From contig JAABTS010000053.1 of the NCBI GenBank assembly GCA_011389735.1, positions 1-35,109 on the forward strand: a stretch of DNA of 35,109 nucleotides, read 5' to 3'. The translations under genes and the position numbers were made by a program. Every line of letters starts with the position of its first letter. The first letter of the stretch is position 1. The notes beneath the pieces are model-generated. The model was not told the origin of the DNA. It made no database searches and worked only from the letters and a program-made list of their open reading frames with translations. The DNA is from Desulfobacteraceae bacterium. GTDB lineage: Bacteria > Desulfobacterota > Desulfobacteria > Desulfobacterales > JAABTS01. Positions 7,054 to 34,230 of the stretch are shown here, one piece after another.

Positions 7054-7389
7054 TGTAATAATTTATTGAAGTCTGAATTTGTCGAAATTTTGATTCATTG
7101 TCTTCAAAATTTGTCGGATCGTTGAACCGTTTGAAGGGCTTGATTCTAATTGCGGCCAAAGTTAGTCGGGTTGCTCTGGAGCGCCAAAGCCGGAGACTGG
7201 CGCTTCGTAAGTCGCGGGTTGCAAACCCGCTCAGAGCAAGAGACCCGCTCAGAGGGGGTTTGCAACCCCCGGCTTACCCGGCGCTCCGGCCGATCTTAGA
7301 ACCAGGCCCCGTTTGAACACCATAGCGCCTTTAATGAACCACTTTCCGGCTTCTTCGTAGTGCCTTTGATCAAATGCGATCCTCCCCTA
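7054..7389 (-). pseudogene. TPR-like gene split by a 175-bp element
   Basis: The minus-strand segment 7386-7311 reads GRIAFDQRHYEEAGKWFIKG then AMVFK, a typical tetratricopeptide helix pair (compare LGRIAxxQxxYExAxxWxxKAL). An in-frame TAG at 7389-7387 precedes it. At 7311-7317 the sequence GTTTGAA is reached, and the same seven bases occur at 7129-7135 on the far side of the element. Joining across them keeps the frame and continues VFKRFNDPTNFEDNESKF, which fits the usual end of this protein type. The N-terminal part of the gene is gone. What can be seen is a remnant first decayed and interrupted by the insertion. Confidence 0.6.
7136..7310. mobile_element. MITE-like element with 7-bp target duplication
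   Basis: A 175-bp non-coding insertion bounded by GGGCTTGATTCTAA at the left and TTAGAACCAGGCCCC at the right, which are imperfect inverted repeats. It is flanked by perfect direct repeats GTTTGAA at 7129-7135 and 7311-7317. The interior is an imperfect palindrome holding CGGGTTGCAAACCCG and GGGGGTTTGCAACCCCC. Removing the element and one repeat restores an open TPR-like frame. It carries no transposase, so any mobility must have been supplied in trans. Confidence 0.75.
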
Positions 7390-7550: not shown

Positions 7551-7640
7551 ATAAATGCAATTTCTGAAAGCCTCCATGCCCATAGGGCAAGAAAAATAAA
7601 TGCAATTTCTGAAAACCTCCATATCCATAGGGTAAGAAAA
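7551..7640. repeat. Two-copy 45-bp tandem repeat
   Basis: A unit beginning ATAAATGCAATTTCTGAAA and ending with CATAGGG(C/T)AAGAAAA occurs at 7551-7595 and 7596-7640 with a few substitutions. It lies in a non-coding stretch, and no function is evident. Confidence 0.8.
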
Positions 7641-14256: not shown

Positions 14257-14434
14257 CCTGTTGCAAGGGAAGCCACAGAAAATAAACTACCCATCTTGCT
14301 TGCCTTTTGGCCCGTATTCCGTATTGCGTCAAGAGGTGAATATTTCAATATGCACGCTCTTGGCACAACACGGAATACGAACCAAAATTCAGCGCAATAT
14401 TGGGTAGTTTATTTCCAATAACTTCCCTTACAGG
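14257..14434. repeat. Long imperfect palindrome upstream of mltF
   Basis: The arms run CCTGTTGCAAGGGAAG on the left against CTTCCCTTACAGG on the right, then AAATAAACTACCCA against TGGGTAGTTTATTT, then an inner CGTATTCCGT against ACGGAATACG. It begins 12 bases upstream of the mltF start codon, so it forms the 5' leader or promoter region of that gene. Its right end abuts a P1 repeat. In the 627 bases between mltF and the cyclase I see only repeats. Confidence 0.8.
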
Positions 14435-14531
14435 ATTTCAGAAATCAAATTCCACAAGAAGGCGGGCCTGAAATAACATTGTTCGTATATCCAGGGCCGG
14501 CAAGGAATTGAATTTTAATTTCTGGAAAATT
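14435..14531. repeat. P1 palindromic intergenic repeat, copy 1
   Basis: Left arm ATTTCAGAAATCAAATTCCAC and right arm GGAATTGAATTTTAATTTCTG frame a GGCGGGCCTG ... CAGGGCCGGC inner pair. Other copies are at 17151, 24591, 27203 and 30851, with a half copy at 7448. Confidence 0.7.
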
Positions 14532-14565
14532 ATATGTTTAATAATCGGGATTTGATGGATAAATT

Positions 14566-14706
14566 GGCATCCTTCATTTCTTGTTTACAGTTTCATCAAA
14601 ATCAAAATCGGGATCGGGATCGGGATCGAAATAATTCGATACCGATGCCGATTTCGATACCGATTTGGGAAGTGTAAACTATTTATCAGCATTTATGAAA
14701 GATGCC
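14566..14706. mobile_element. P3 MITE-like element, copy 1, with 8-bp target duplication
   Basis: A 141-bp non-coding element. Terminal inverted repeats are GGCATCCTTCAT and ATGAAAGATGCC, with an inner GTTTACA/TGTAAAC pair. The core has tandem GATCGG units that pair with a facing CGATACCGATGCCGA stretch. It is flanked by perfect 8-bp direct repeats GATAAATT at 14558-14565 and 14707-14714. A second copy is at 17502-17636. Confidence 0.88.
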
Positions 14707-14752
14707 GATAAATTTAGGGTTTTTAATTTTCAGTGCGTTGATCATCTATTTA

Positions 14753-14872
14753 GCGCCTGAACGAAAAGTTTCAAAATACGGTTCTGAGCGGGTTTGTAAC
14801 CCGGGTGTTCCCTCTCGTGGCCAACGGGGATTGCAAATCCCCATGGAGCGTGAGGCGGTTTTCGTTCAGCCA
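14753..14872. mobile_element. P2-core element inserted at the cyclase stop codon, 7-bp target duplication
   Basis: Perfect 11-bp arms CTGAACGAAAA (14757-14767) and TTTTCGTTCAG (14859-14869) enclose the P2 core GAGCGGGTTTGTAACCCG ... CGGGGATTGCAAATCCCC. CTATTTA occurs at 14746-14752 and 14873-14879, just outside, and reads as a 7-bp target duplication. The right copy includes the cyclase stop codon (TAG on the minus strand, 14873-14875). Confidence 0.65.
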
Positions 14873-17107
14873 CTATTTAAACTGCAAATCAATAACGAAA
14901 GTCCAGTCGTCGGCCGGGGGTTGATCGATGTAAAGCCGGCATCGATCCCGGTAAATGCGTGACACGCTGTCGCCCGGGTAAAGGCTCAGCGCTTTTTCGA
15001 AATCGGCCAGCCCGTTCTTGAAATCCCGTCTCCGATAGTTTTCAACGCCACGGTTGAATAAATCGATAACATCCTCCAGGCGGGTCAAGAATTTCCTGTC
15101 ATGGTAGTCCAGCACCTGATAAACCGCTACGGGTTTGCTTTTACCCTTGACTATGATTTGATCGACTTCCCGGCATTGATAGCCGTTTTTAACCCCGCGG
15201 TAGGTAAATTCGCTGATAAGGATATTGGAGCCGTAAATCTTATTGGCGCTTTCCAGACGAGCCGCAAGATTGACGCCGTCTCCGATAACCGTATAATCCA
15301 TGCGCTTGAGGGATCCTACATTGCCTGAAAGCACCTCGTTGGTGCTTATGCCGATTCCGATTTCAATGGGATCTTTTGCATCCGCGATTCTTCTCTGGTT
15401 GTATTCCCGAAGCGCAATCATGATTTCAATAGCGGTTTGAACCGCGCGATCCGGATCTTCGCCGGTGGAAAAAGGCGCTCCGAACACCGAAAGAATGGCG
15501 TCCCCAATGAATTTATCCAATATGCCCTCATGTTGAAAAACTATATCGACGCATATAGTGAAATATTCATTCAGCAAGGCGACGGTTTCCTGAGGTCCGA
15601 TTTTTTCGGCGATGGACGTAAACTGGCGGATATCCGAAAAGAGTACTGTGGCCTCCTGAATCCTCCCTCCTAGAACTGTTTCGCCGCTTTCAAGGAGCTG
15701 GTCGGCCACCTGTTTGGTCATGTATCGTGAAATCGTGCTTTTCAGCCTTTTTTCACCGGTTATGTCTTCCATGATCAGCAGTGTTCCGAGATGGTCGCCG
15801 TCGGTTCCCAGAAGCGGAACCACGGATAAATTGATCGATACTTCGGCGCCGTCGGCGAGAAGCAAATCCGTGTCCATATTGTGATCTACGTCCCCGCTTT
15901 CCATGACCTTTTCTATACTGCGCACCACCCAATGATTGTTCCGGCTGAAATATTCCACCGCGGACCGGCCGATCAGCGTGCCTTCGGTTTCGTTCAGCAA
16001 CTCAAAGGCCGTGGAATTGCATTTGACCATGAAACCGTCGGCGTCCAAAGAAATCAAGCCGTTGCTCATGCTTTCGAGCAAACTCTCGTTATAGTTTTTC
16101 ATGTTCAATATATATTCGAACAGCTTGGCGTTTTCGAGCGCCATGGACGCTTGAGCGCTAAAAGCCTGCAAACGCTGTTCATCTCTTTGGGTGAAAGGCC
16201 CTCCCTCTTTGTTGAGCACCTGGATCACGCCGATGATGAGCCCCTTTTTATTCCGGACGGGCATACACAGAATCGAACGGGTTTGATATCCGGTCGATCT
16301 ATCGATGTCAGGATTGAATCGCGCATCACTATAAGCGTCTTGAATATTGATGGTTTCCCCACTGGTGTAAACCGTACCGGCGATTCCCCGGTCGGATGGA
16401 AAGCGGATATCGCGTGTTTCAAGTCCTTGAGCCACCCGGGACCACAGTTCATTCGTTCGTTCATCGACCATGAACAAGGTGCATCGATCAGCGGAAAGCA
16501 ATTCCTTGGTCGCATCCATGATCTTCCCCAGCAAATTGCTCAAGTTGAGTTCGAAAAGAAGTTCGGTGGTCATTTCGATCAGTTTTGATTCTTCTTCCCT
16601 GGCCTGTTTGAGTTCTTGCTGAGCCTTTTTTCGTTCCGCGATGTCCTTGCGTAATTGTTCGTTCACCCGCGTTAGTTCATTGGTTCTTTGGAGGACGGAA
16701 TGTTCAAGGTAATCGCGGTAGTTTTTCAATTCCAGGTGGGTTTTAATCCTGGCTTTGACGATCGCCGGCCTGAAAGGTTTGGCTACATAATCGACGGCCC
16801 CGAGTTCGAGGCCTTTGGTTTCGTCTTCTTCACTGCTTTTGGCGGAAATGAAAATAACCGGAATTTTTCGGGTCAGGCTGTTCTTTTTCAGGCGTCTGCA
16901 CACTTCATATCCGTCCATACCGGGCATCATGATGTCCAGCAGGATCAAATCGGGCGGGTCCGGCGATATAGCGATTTCAAGGGACTCTTCTCCGCTGGTG
17001 CAGACACTGATATTATACTCGAACTTGAGCATCTCCCAGAGCGCCGTTATATTGATCGGCATATCATCGACGATCAAAATTTTTTGTTTGGACTTTGTTT
17101 TGCTCAT
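14873..17107 (-). CDS. Receiver-GAF-PAS-adenylate cyclase signalling protein
   Basis: A cytoplasmic class III nucleotide cyclase controlled by phosphorylation and ligand domains, 744 residues. Order: receiver (8-125) with the DD pair and phospho-Asp58 in LILLDIMMPGMDG; coiled coil (about 135-185); GAF (about 190-340); PAS (about 345-470); cyclase domain (about 480-665) with metal-binding FSDIRQFTS, the adenine-selecting Lys in ILDKFIGD and the transition-state NLAARLE motif; then a short TPR-like tail. The KFIGD lysine and YTVIGD point to ATP, so cAMP is the likely product. I take ATG at 17107; a longer TTG start exists. No partner kinase is adjacent. The gene stands alone between two clusters of repeats, and its stop codon lies in a repeat's target site. 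Confidence 0.9.
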   Translation of the reverse strand: MSKTKSKQKILIVDDMPINITALWEMLKFEYNISVCTSGEESLEIAISPDPPDLILLDIMMPGMDGYEVCRRLKKNSLTRKIPVIFISAKSSEEDETKGLELGAVDYVAKPFRPAIVKARIKTHLELKNYRDYLEHSVLQRTNELTRVNEQLRKDIAERKKAQQELKQAREEESKLIEMTTELLFELNLSNLLGKIMDATKELLSADRCTLFMVDERTNELWSRVAQGLETRDIRFPSDRGIAGTVYTSGETINIQDAYSDARFNPDIDRSTGYQTRSILCMPVRNKKGLIIGVIQVLNKEGGPFTQRDEQRLQAFSAQASMALENAKLFEYILNMKNYNESLLESMSNGLISLDADGFMVKCNSTAFELLNETEGTLIGRSAVEYFSRNNHWVVRSIEKVMESGDVDHNMDTDLLLADGAEVSINLSVVPLLGTDGDHLGTLLIMEDITGEKRLKSTISRYMTKQVADQLLESGETVLGGRIQEATVLFSDIRQFTSIAEKIGPQETVALLNEYFTICVDIVFQHEGILDKFIGDAILSVFGAPFSTGEDPDRAVQTAIEIMIALREYNQRRIADAKDPIEIGIGISTNEVLSGNVGSLKRMDYTVIGDGVNLAARLESANKIYGSNILISEFTYRGVKNGYQCREVDQIIVKGKSKPVAVYQVLDYHDRKFLTRLEDVIDLFNRGVENYRRRDFKNGLADFEKALSLYPGDSVSRIYRDRCRLYIDQPPADDWTFVIDLQFK

Positions 17108-17150
17108 TCGTTCAAATTCCGCAATTCCCTCTAATTCCAATTTCTACGGG

Positions 17151-17245
17151 TTTTCAGAAATTAAATTAAAAGAGCGGCAAACCCAAAATCATACCACCAG
17201 TATATCCCAGGCCGACACACAGTGGAATTCAATTTCTTGAAAACT
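17151..17245. repeat. P1 palindromic intergenic repeat, copy 2
   Basis: Left arm TTTTCAGAAATTAAATT and right arm AGTGGAATTCAATTTCTTGA frame an inner CCCAGGCCG. It lies in the leader of the cyclase gene. The 637 bases from 17108 to 17744 hold three repeats and a hairpin; I see no gene. Confidence 0.65.
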
Positions 17246-17343
17246 ATAAAACCGATATCATACAAGGGAATGGATTGCAATGGAAACAGCACGAATCAGG
17301 AATTCACGGTGAGCCGAAATTACAGAGCTATGCCCCGACAATT

Positions 17344-17482
17344 TTGAGATATAGCCTTGCGGAAATGAAATTAACCACTGCTCTGAGCGGGTTTGTAACC
17401 CGCGTTTACCTCTTGCGGCAGGCGGGGTTTGCAAATTCCCCGGCGGCTTGAGGAGGCTTTAGTTCCAATACCCGTGCATGAA
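17344..17482. repeat. P2-core repeat, second copy by the cyclase gene
   Basis: The core GAGCGGGTTTGTAACCCGC ... CGGGGTTTGCAAATTCCCC (about 17386-17445) matches those at 7211-7280 and 14785-14845. GACAATT occurs at 17337-17343 and 17483-17489 and could be a 7-bp target duplication, but the terminal repeats are weak here, so the outer limits are uncertain. Confidence 0.5.
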
Positions 17483-17501
17483 GACAATTCATAATTTTTT
17501 T

Positions 17502-17636
17502 GGCGTCCTTCATTTCTTGTTTACAGTTTCATCAAAATCGGGATCGGGATCGGGATCGTAATAATTCGATACCGATCCCGATTTCGATACCGATTTGGGA
17601 AGTGTAAACTATTTATCAGCATTTATGAAAGACGCC
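17502..17636. mobile_element. P3 MITE-like element, copy 2, with 8-bp target duplication
   Basis: A 135-bp copy nearly identical to the one at 14566-14706, in the same orientation. Terminal repeats are GGCGTCCTTCAT and ATGAAAGACGCC. Relative to copy 1, both strands of the palindrome changed together (GGCATC/GATGCC to GGCGTC/GACGCC). Perfect 8-bp direct repeats ATTTTTTT flank it at 17494-17501 and 17637-17644. Confidence 0.88.
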
Positions 17637-17678
17637 ATTTTTTTGAACTAAATTAAAACTGCGCCGACAGGCGGTTTA

Positions 17679-24590: not shown

Positions 24591-24703
24591 CTTCCGGAAA
24601 TTCAAATTCACCGGGTCGCCGGCCCGGGATATTCGAACCGGAATATTCGAATAGTGTTATCCCGCGCCCGCCGCCTCGTGAAATTTGATTTCCGAAAACC
24701 TGT
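24591..24703. repeat. P1 palindromic intergenic repeat, copy 3
   Basis: Left arm CTTCCGGAAATTCAAATTCAC and right arm GTGAAATTTGATTTCCGAAAA pair over nearly 20 bases. The inner CCGGGTCGCCGGCCCGGGATA pairs with TATCCCGCGCCCGCCG. It lies in the livK leader between the probable promoter and the ribosome site, and is the cleanest copy of the family here. The rest of 24546-24812 shows nothing else. Confidence 0.75.
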
Positions 24704-24736
24704 AGCAATTCCCCTACCCTTTCGTGAAACAGTCGG

Positions 24737-31753: not shown

Positions 31754-33667
31754 CTATCCTCCGCCCCTTAGCTTGCGCACGTCGCCGATCCTGATCGTCA
31801 ATTGTTTGCCGTCGAAATACTCGATCAACGGGATGAGATATTTCCTGGACACGCCCGCGATATCCTTAAACTGGGGCGTTGTCATCTCCTGATGGTCTTT
31901 GAGGAATCCAATGATCCGGCCTTTCAGATCTTCGACCGCCGCCGTATCGAAATACAGATCTTCTTTCACCTTGACAATTTTTCCCTCGCCGATAAGCAGT
32001 TTCAAAACATCCAGGCATCGGCCTGATTCAACACCGATGGATTTTACGACATCTTTGAAATATGGAGGCGTCAGCCCGGAGCCAATGTAAGCCTTCAAAA
32101 GCTTTTCCCGGATTTCCGCCTGATCGATTCCGAGCGACACCTTGTGGCCGGCCAGCTTCACGGTCTCGCCTTCCTGAACGACAGACCCGTCCTTGATCAA
32201 TTGATTCAATATCAATGTCATCAGCTTGATTCCGATAAAAGCAGGAAATTTGGACTTCAGCTCCTCTTTGGGCATTCCTGGCCTCAACGGATGTTTCTCA
32301 TGATACTGTTTGACCCTGGACAATATCTCAGCTTTCAGCTTATCGAGATTGGTTTTGTGAATATACACGCCGTTTTCCCGATCCGTCAAAACTAGAACCT
32401 GTTTTGAAAGAAGGCCGCCGACGATCTGTTCGAGCGGTTTGTCGGACAGGTTTGTCATGAGCTTCAACGCGGTGAATGAAACACCCCGATAACCTTCCGC
32501 CTCGGCGTGATACATGACGATATCCTCCGGTTCGGCGTCTATAATCGTTTTCAAACCCTTTATAACGCCGGTTCTGAACCGCTTATGCTTGGACGGTATC
32601 GGGTTTAGCACGGCCCCGCCGCCGATTGTGCGAATCGGCGAATAGCTCCGGATAACGAACCGATCGTCCCTGACAACTGAAACCGGCGAATCGAGGCGAA
32701 TTTGAGCCACGGTTCGGTCGCCGGGGGCCAGTTCCTCGGTTTCAAGCAAAATCAGGTTGCCGATGACCTCGCTGGTTCCCGTATGGAGCCGGACGCGGGT
32801 ACGATTTTTGATTGGCCGCTTGTTTCCGGAAAGATAGGTCAAATCCACATCTAGCATATAACTCGGAATCAGCCCGCCGGGTTTGGATAACACGTCCCCT
32901 CGGTCGACGGCCGTCTTGTCCAGACCCTGAAAATTCACGGCGGTTCTCATCCCGGCGTTCGCCTCGGTCACGGACTGGTTATGGAATTGAATCCCCCTCA
33001 CCCTGGACGTAATTTCCGGCGGATAAATCATGATCGTGTCGCCGGTCTTGACGCTCCCCGATATAAGCGATCCCGTAATCACCGTGCCGAATCCTTTCAT
33101 GGTGAACACACGGTCCACCGGAAGGCGGAACAGATCCGACGACGGACGTTCGGGAATTTCAACACATAACGCATCCAAAACCTTGATAAACTCGTCTTTC
33201 CCTTCTCCGGTGACAGACGAAAACGGAATGACCGGTCTACCGTCCAGAAACGTGCCGGCGACAAAATCCTTCACATCCTCCATCGCCAGCTCCATAAACT
33301 CATCATCCACCATATCGATTTTGGTCAATACGATAAATCCGTGTTCGATCCCTAAAAGCGAACAAATTTCCATGTGTTCCCGAGTCTGCGGCATAACCCC
33401 TTCATCCGCAGCGATGACCATGACCACAATATCGATCCCCGTCGCGCCCGCAACCATGTTTTTCACAAACTTTTCATGACCCGGAACATCGACGATTCCA
33501 ACACATTCCCCGCTCGGAGTGTCAAGAGAAGCAAAACCAAGTTCGATTGTGATCCCCCGGAGCTGTTCTTCCTTCAACCGATCCGTGTTAATTCCGGAAA
33601 CAGTCTTGATCAAACTCGTTTTTCCATGATCAATATGCCCGGCGGTTCCTAATATTATCTGTTTCAA
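31754..33667 (-). CDS. selB: Selenocysteine-specific elongation factor SelB
   Basis: SelB delivers Sec-tRNA(Sec) to the ribosome at UGA codons marked by a SECIS hairpin. At 637 residues it is full length. G motifs: [10 protein letters not shown] (10-19), DVPGH (about 58-62), TKID (about 113-116). EF-Tu-like domains 2 and 3 follow ([19 protein letters not shown]), then the C-terminal winged helices that bind SECIS RNA (from about 440, ending [14 protein letters not shown]). The start is TTG at 33667, overlapping the upstream TGA as TTGA; the canonical [16 protein letters not shown] follows at once, so no later start fits. SelA, SelD and tRNA-Sec are not in the window. Confidence 0.96.
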
Positions 33668-34061: not shown

Positions 34062-34138
34062 GGAGGGTGTAGCTCAGTTGGTAGAGCACCAGGTTGTGGC
34101 CCTGGTGGCCGTGGGTTCAAGTCCCATCATCCTCCCCA
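34062..34138 (+). tRNA. tRNA-His (anticodon GTG)
   Basis: The acceptor GAGGGTG pairs with CATCCTC, and an extra 5' G (position -1) faces C73, the identity pair of tRNA-His. The anticodon loop TTGTGGC gives GTG. CCA is encoded. It is 15 bases before tRNA-Arg, with which it is probably co-transcribed. Confidence 0.95.
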
Positions 34139-34153
34139 TTTCAACATCGCCAT

Positions 34154-34230
<77 letters not shown>

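Follow-up and report, generated by a model that had tools for sequence, protein, structure and literature searches.

Many bacterial genomes are strewn with palindromic repeats whose spread has rarely been accounted for. The question is raised by two short elements at positions 14566-14706 and 17502-17636 of contig JAABTS010000053.1 (assembly GCA_011389735.1, Desulfobacteraceae bacterium), whose whole analysed stretch of 35,109 nucleotides is called here the window: what are these elements, and what has moved them? A sequence-only reading of this DNA had proposed a family of miniature inverted-repeat transposable elements (MITEs) with 8-bp target duplications and had called its driver unknown. 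The family is real and large, and it withstands the refuting condition set with that proposal, since many copies have duplications and related empty sites were found. Its anatomy is ordinary at the level of a single genome; the view across genomes is unusual, with one asymmetric pair of ends, many hairpin cores and a transposase family outside the curated models. As to the driver, an answer can now be given with fair confidence: it is most probably an insertion sequence (IS) that has the ends of this family and encodes a DUF6399-related transposase. Judged from the sequences compared below, the window elements are very probably MITEs mobilised in trans by the transposase of this new DUF6399-related family.

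The two elements and their family in the host genome

Read directly from the sequence, both elements have perfect 8-bp target duplications that differ between the two, as had been claimed. Their foldability was also borne out, with z values of -7.3 to -8.4 relative to shuffled sequences on either strand. Their core is a hairpin of ATCGNN hexamers whose number of units shifts in steps of six, probably by slippage. The parts of both elements are as follows, with window coordinates and strand (a point marks features without strand); A-type refers to the subfamily described below.

14558..14565 (.): left copy of the 8-bp target duplication of element 1, GATAAATT, read from the sequence
14566..14706 (+): element 1, A-type miniature element of 141 bp, read from the sequence and catalogued
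14566..14577 (+): outer part of the left end of element 1, GGCATCCTTCAT
14583..14590 (+): inner motif of the left end of element 1, GTTTACAG, at offset 17
14591..14671 (+): core of element 1, a hexamer hairpin with ATCGGG units facing CGATNN units
14672..14679 (-): inner motif of the right end of element 1, GTTTACAC read inward, at offset 27
14695..14706 (-): outer part of the right end of element 1, GGCATCTTTCAT read inward
14707..14714 (.): right copy of the target duplication of element 1, GATAAATT
17494..17501 (.): left copy of the 8-bp target duplication of element 2, ATTTTTTT
17502..17636 (+): element 2 (locus L014), A-type miniature element of 135 bp, with a related empty site in L044
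17502..17513 (+): outer part of the left end of element 2, GGCGTCCTTCAT
17519..17526 (+): inner motif of the left end of element 2, GTTTACAG
17527..17601 (+): core of element 2, a hexamer hairpin
17602..17609 (-): inner motif of the right end of element 2, GTTTACAC read inward
17625..17636 (-): outer part of the right end of element 2, GGCGTCTTTCAT read inward
17637..17644 (.): right copy of the target duplication of element 2, ATTTTTTT

The host genome, a 6.5-Mb draft that is 97% complete and distributed over 477 contigs, is replete with such ends. The 12-mer GGCRTCYTTCAT occurs at 360 exact places (178+182), against 0+1 for the reversed pattern. With up to three mismatches, the 26-mer of the right end was found at 88 places and the 27-mer of the left end at 98, the reversed controls giving none; for 69 of these 98 left ends, a right end follows at no more than 300 bp. 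Three subfamilies were seen. Subfamily A, the type of the window, has 59 catalogued copies of 115-177 bp, so that the size range of 135-141 bp given earlier proved too narrow, and its lengths step by 6 (54 of the 59 are 3 modulo 6). Subfamily B (88-156 bp) has a related hexamer core, and subfamily C a quite different one made of CACAAAG-like repeats (L126, L128, L130). At one locus (L118, C1:68661-69020) a B-type element is separated by 69 bases from an A-type one, and both have duplications of their own. As is expected of a high-copy repeat, many contigs in this draft stop inside an element.

The sequence-only reading had also seen covariation in the terminal palindrome, and this could not be upheld. 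Position 4 of the terminal inverted repeat and its partner are A/T in 39 of the 59 A-type copies, A/C, a mismatch, in 13, G/T in 3, G/C in 3 and C/T in 1 (Fisher p 0.33 for the first four classes, n=58); the two window copies happen to be one A-T and one G-C example. Nor is there support for the hairpin arms changing length together, the arm lengths of A-type copies being uncorrelated (rho -0.19, p 0.20, n 49).

Insertion is recorded by the flanks. In the host genome, the duplication is perfect in 54 of the 96 elements with both flanks and has a single mismatch in 18. Among the whole set of 207 elements with both flanks, all eight bases match in 124 and seven in 39, against 0.4% and 0.8% for permuted flanks; the pairing of ends in this set favoured partners with the better duplication, and a pairing blind to it, D. 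magnum (Desulfonema magnum) included, still gave 127 perfect duplications and 38 with one mismatch (n=217). The composition of the 124 perfect duplications follows N-A-A-W-W-T-T-N. Empty sites were sought by joining the flanks of elements with 7-8 matching duplication bases, minus the element and one copy of the duplication, and comparing them with 285 kb of the genome's own sequence (overlaps counted); a match had to run uninterrupted across the junction, with at least 14 bases on each side and at most 3 gaps. Related empty sites were found for 18 of the 71 own elements so tested, for instance L031 against L003 (96% over 76 bases, no gap). Element 2 of the window is among them: its counterpart L044 is 83% alike over 99 bases, the 3 gaps of the alignment being close to the junction. 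All such sites are paralogous, lying within other dispersed repeats, and not orthologous, because the relatives compared belong only to the same order. One such dispersed repeat, of about the sequence TTTTCAGAAATYAAATTTCACAAG, lies at 14429-14495 and 24638-24704 of the window, and its uninterrupted copies act as the related empty sites of several elements. The insertion of these elements is real, and the family combines terminal inverted repeats, a target-site duplication, empty sites and ends common to an autonomous element, that of D. magnum.

Ends and cores across genomes

The ends are bipartite and asymmetric: an outer GGCATC[CT]TTCAT is followed by an inner GTTTACAC that stands about 18 bases in on the left and about 27 on the right, a difference of about one helical turn. 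When the inner motif was searched for with up to 3 mismatches at offsets 15-30, 202 of 207 elements had it at 17-19 on one side and at 25-29 on the other.

In 96 genomes, made up of the host genome and 95 others from its order, the pattern GGCATCYTTCA-N6..16-GTTTACAC is present in 17, with up to 229 matches per genome, the control giving 0 in all 96. A stricter end pattern found at least 111 stretches in a scan of GTDB contigs. Among the matches listed, most are labelled Desulfobacterota, including Desulfonema magnum, Desulfamplus magnetovallimortis and Desulfobacter latus; other record titles among them name Achromatium, Thiotrichaceae, Methylococcaceae, Methyloprofundus, Sedimenticola, Nitrosomonas or Nitrosomonadales, Campylobacteraceae and Epsilonproteobacteria. 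By these titles the ends reach, beyond Desulfobacterota, the Gammaproteobacteria, Nitrosomonadales and Campylobacterota, many of the labelled records being metagenome bins for which single taxon assignments may be wrong. The ends are more widely distributed than the core of the window elements. A search of a virus collection for the ends gave a single match (L176) that looks like chance.

What lies between the ends is diverse. The cores of 218 elements from 36 genome labels, which may in places count one genome under two names, fall into 51 clusters (blastn 1e-3), of which 13 were found under at least two labels; as many as 9 clusters occur in a single genome. A more sensitive Smith-Waterman comparison merged the clusters into 44 groups, 31 of them with cores of at least 45 nt. 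Eleven cores of 36-40 nt are mutually related (mean identity 0.41 against 0.26 for shuffled sequences) and look like one diverged family. Several cores, for example those beginning ATTGCGAG, GTTCCCACGCTCC and GTAGAGACGC, we take to be repeats widely seen in bacteria. Two elements with the same core (L158 and L292, GB_4872_bin42) flank, in opposite orientation, a gene that by eye reads like one for a phosphate-binding protein.

Ends and cores are separable in these sequences. In genome G048 three unrelated cores are preceded by one 25-nt left end, GGCATCCTTCAAATTTAGTTTACAC, which stands out by its twelfth base and by a short spacer, exactly in clusters 9 and 14 and with one change in cluster 8. 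Over all standard elements, right spacers are 0.65 identical between different cores of the same genome and 0.57 between elements differing in both genome and core; this effect is small, and the case for module swapping, as a possible mode of core exchange, therefore rests mainly on G048. The interior would be free if, as we propose, only the ends matter to the transposase. From genome to genome the same ends are seen around different, mostly palindromic cores.

An insertion sequence of Desulfonema magnum with the same ends

Exact ends were mapped in six genomes, the counts of pairs being those among the matches listed. In D. magnum at least 18 pairs of ends are 306-308 bp apart and at least four are exactly 1923 bp apart. 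The latter delimit four identical copies of an insertion sequence, each with one L-type and one R-type end and the same open reading frame (ORF) of 533 aa (P0001), which starts 150 bp from the L-end and stops 171 bp from the R-end. Three of the four copies have perfect duplications (CTCCGAGC, AATTTCTC and TCCGATTC), as do both of the short elements L346 and L347 of this genome. When one 307-bp MITE of D. magnum was compared with the insertion sequence, the match was limited to the terminal 29 and 39 bp (E < 0.01).

One end also stands beside the expected gene terminus in genomes G073 (L361, L367), G091 (L363, L368) and G037 (L362), and a 106-residue fragment of the transposase was met in the GTDB scan (L228). 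In G073 (L367, L371; C335) the transposase gene is split into two parts running in opposite directions, and the octamer next to one of two nearby L-type ends is the reverse complement of that next to the other, a trace that intramolecular inversion might leave. Other searches for a complete autonomous element gave none: neither the 14 regions around lone ends in the own genome nor the 20 in G048 and G034 held a transposase-bearing element (several lone ends having no recognised partner), and the scanned GTDB loci L224-L303 and L304-L334, 15 lone ends being inspected there, were equally without a complete one. Two further long pairs, a 1607-bp one in D. magnum (L345) and a 2247-bp one with 7 of 8 duplication bases (L210), contain no ORF above 121 and 142 aa, respectively.

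No family of Pfam or NCBIfam matches P0001 over its cut-off, PHROGs gave no match either, and among solved structures nothing falls below E 0.1 (best E 0.66); its best weak matches are transposase and integrase families. A five-sequence profile of the driver aligned with two DUF6399 proteins, from G022 and G091, over columns 145-520 (probability 97.3, E 2.6e-11). Both groups have the blocks D-E, (S/T/C)-D-(E/N) and S-S-x-x-E, which plausibly represent a predicted DDE triad. Since PF19936 (DUF6399) has no direct match over cut-off to P0001, the latter is best placed, on these alignments, as a sister group of the DUF6399 proteins. The two DUF6399 proteins themselves (L366, 619-1899, in G022, E 4e-40; L373, 265-1848, in G091, E 1e-57) have acidic blocks like those of the driver, and at the G022 locus the gene is 366 bp away from a MITE whose duplication is perfect.

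Relatives of P0001 and the ends co-occur. Six of the 96 genomes have such relatives (G006, G022, G037, G038, G073 and G091), all of them among the 17 with ends (P 1.3e-5, hypergeometric, ignoring relatedness); those of G037, G073 and G091 are close and long. Phages and viral contigs contained no relative, and plasmids a single distant one (24.9%), in Acaryochloris marina. We propose that a DDE transposase would recognise the outer sequence and the inner motif of both ends, at their unequal distances of about 18 and 27 bases, and would cut and rejoin DNA mostly at AT-rich N-A-A-W-W-T-T-N sites, thereby duplicating 8 bp.

Rival readings, known systems and meaning

Several observations weigh against a driver of this kind. 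One 1923-bp copy (L343) is without duplication, and CTCCGAGC, one of the three duplications found, is not AT-rich. The six genomes with relatives are not fully independent, two of them sharing a family; the matches in G006 and G038 are fragments whose lengths run from 57 residues or fewer up to 74, and those in G022 (31% identity) and one in G091 (26%) are distant. At E 1e-5 no relative of P0001 was detected in 11 of the 17 genomes with ends, among them the own draft (97% complete, 477 contigs) and G034 with its 469 exact 12-mers.

It appears quite improbable that the driver is instead an established family with 8-bp duplications (ISL3, IS1595 or IS256) whose ends are similar by chance. Such families do have AT-rich 8-bp duplications and GG ends, and in this the elements resemble ISL3; the G073 homologues L361 and L367 reach 21.0 and 27.5 bits on PF01610 (DDE_Tnp_ISL3), the second over the cut-off of 23. 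In G037, about 290 bp inward of an L-type end (2116), there is a strong ISL3 fragment (L182, 1501-1827, E 2.1e-26), and six weak PF00872 (IS256) matches pass the Pfam cut-off in the 16 other genomes with ends. However, the own genome has no match to PF00872, PF12762 or PF01610, and among the 17 genomes with ends PF12762 occurs in 2 and PF01610 in 6. At the 27 loci of these last two families, no family gene is found between facing L-type and R-type ends with a duplication: no R-type partner is recognised at L182, and what L203 holds is the homologue of the driver. The PF00872 matches come from 4 of the 16 other genomes, with no end (up to 2 mismatches) at the six loci. As to the proteins, P0001 and its homologues score 12.3, 18.1 and 19.3 bits on PF00872 (the last two in G073), all under the cut-off of 21, and match neither PF12762 (IS1595) nor PF03050 (IS66), a model with which the genomes themselves were not searched. 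The 533-aa protein of D. magnum has no PF01610 match, and the comparison of the driver profile with three ISL3 proteins of related genomes is weak (hhalign probability 15%). By these family searches and the mapping of ends around the matches, IS1595, IS256 and ISL3 in the strict sense are not supported as drivers.

It is even less probable, indeed very improbable, that the palindromic cores are the real mobile units, akin to repetitive extragenic palindromes (REP) or small dispersed repeats, with the ends as secondary decoration or insertion targets. Core-like palindromes do stand more than 230 bp from any recognised end at up to 57 places in the loci examined, an upper bound since some places overlap and at least two (L115, L117) adjoin degraded ends; perfect duplications also flank some short elements whose core, of about 39 nt, has a weak hairpin or none. 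Against this, the 8-bp duplications flank the ends and not the core, and what is missing from the related empty sites is the complete element together with its ends.

The hairpin itself may be kept for a role, useful to the host or to the element, in transcripts or as a cruciform, for example as a two-way transcription terminator or in the synapsis of the ends of a 100-200 bp element. We consider this somewhat unlikely, and it is compatible with mobilisation by the DUF6399-related transposase rather than exclusive of it. In its favour, the median folding z is below -2 in 32 of 48 clusters, against 3 of 48 for flanking stretches of equal length (203 elements, 60 shuffles each), or in 30 of 41 groups against 2 of 41 after merging, and the share rises with core length, from 7 of 16 clusters below 45 nt to 9 of 12 at 45-80 nt and 16 of 20 above 80 nt. 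Yet 16 of the 48 clusters, mostly those with short cores, are without a strong hairpin, and some of these are multi-copy with perfect duplications; moreover, neither the arms of the hexamer hairpin nor the terminal base pair vary together.

Compared with known systems, the family has the general traits that a review attributes to bacterial MITEs: short length, terminal inverted repeats, target duplications, stem-loop transcripts, many intergenic copies and no coding capacity (PMC10969869). In contrast to the MITEs as described there, the ends are here asymmetric and bipartite, one pair surrounds 51 core clusters (44 after merging) in several bacterial classes, and in the single comparison made the interior did not derive from the insertion sequence by internal deletion. 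The Chunjie MITE of Geobacter uraniireducens, of which the same review says that it is multi-copy, with conserved terminal repeats and 178-235 bp (PMC10969869), is alike by description only, in copy number, terminal repeats and variable length. The hupL MITE of Thiomargarita, a large sulfur bacterium, with matches on 260 of 439 contigs and no parental insertion sequence recognised in that host (PMC4853749), is likewise comparable by description only; it differs in its reported 10-bp direct repeats and 19-bp inverted repeat. DUF6399 (PF19936), a family of unknown function, has a profile homologous to that of the driver and similar acidic blocks, and its model does not match P0001. REP elements and the related bacterial interspersed mosaic elements (BIME) are palindromes dispersed by a Y1 transposase with no target duplication; here, 8-bp duplications lie outside the ends. 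Among the papers listed on MITEs in Desulfo- bacteria, dispersed repeats and asymmetric ends, no account of this family was found, although an ISfinder entry may exist; the papers listed for the 12-mer end were unrelated, and DUF6399 was not mentioned in the literature searched.

As for their surroundings, both window elements are intergenic and lie on the two sides of gene 14873-17140, whose product is a response-regulator, GAF, PAS and nucleotide-cyclase protein. None of the 10 window proteins scanned (90 ORFs listed) matched a transposase family at E 1e-5. The window also contains a palindromic dispersed repeat of another kind, the GCGGGTTTGTAACCCGC type, without the MITE ends (7200-7284, 14778-14811 and 17377-17410), two of its copies being 72 and 92 bases from the two elements; at L131 and L134 a GCGGGTTTGTAACCCGC-like sequence is fused to an A-type end. 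Elsewhere the window has a 45-bp unit in two tandem copies that are 91% alike (7551-7640), and a selB gene beside two tRNA genes (31754-33667 and 34063-34227).

One may tentatively go further and regard this pair of ends as a general wrapper, although we hold it as a possibility rather than an expectation: a DUF6399-related transposase would move any short DNA between the ends, wrapped elements would repeatedly gain unrelated palindromes, many dispersed palindromes of sulfate reducers and environmental Proteobacteria would have been spread by one family, and DUF6399 would be a transposase superfamily. With one end pair and one probable transposase family linked, under 36 genome labels, to short cores and at least 31 different long ones, the spread of palindromes becomes testable, the parts of an assay being named: the outer and inner motifs of the ends and the 8-bp target. 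A probable function is thereby given to DUF6399 proteins and to their sister group. For annotation, the family accounts for the many short repeats at which drafts such as this one break.

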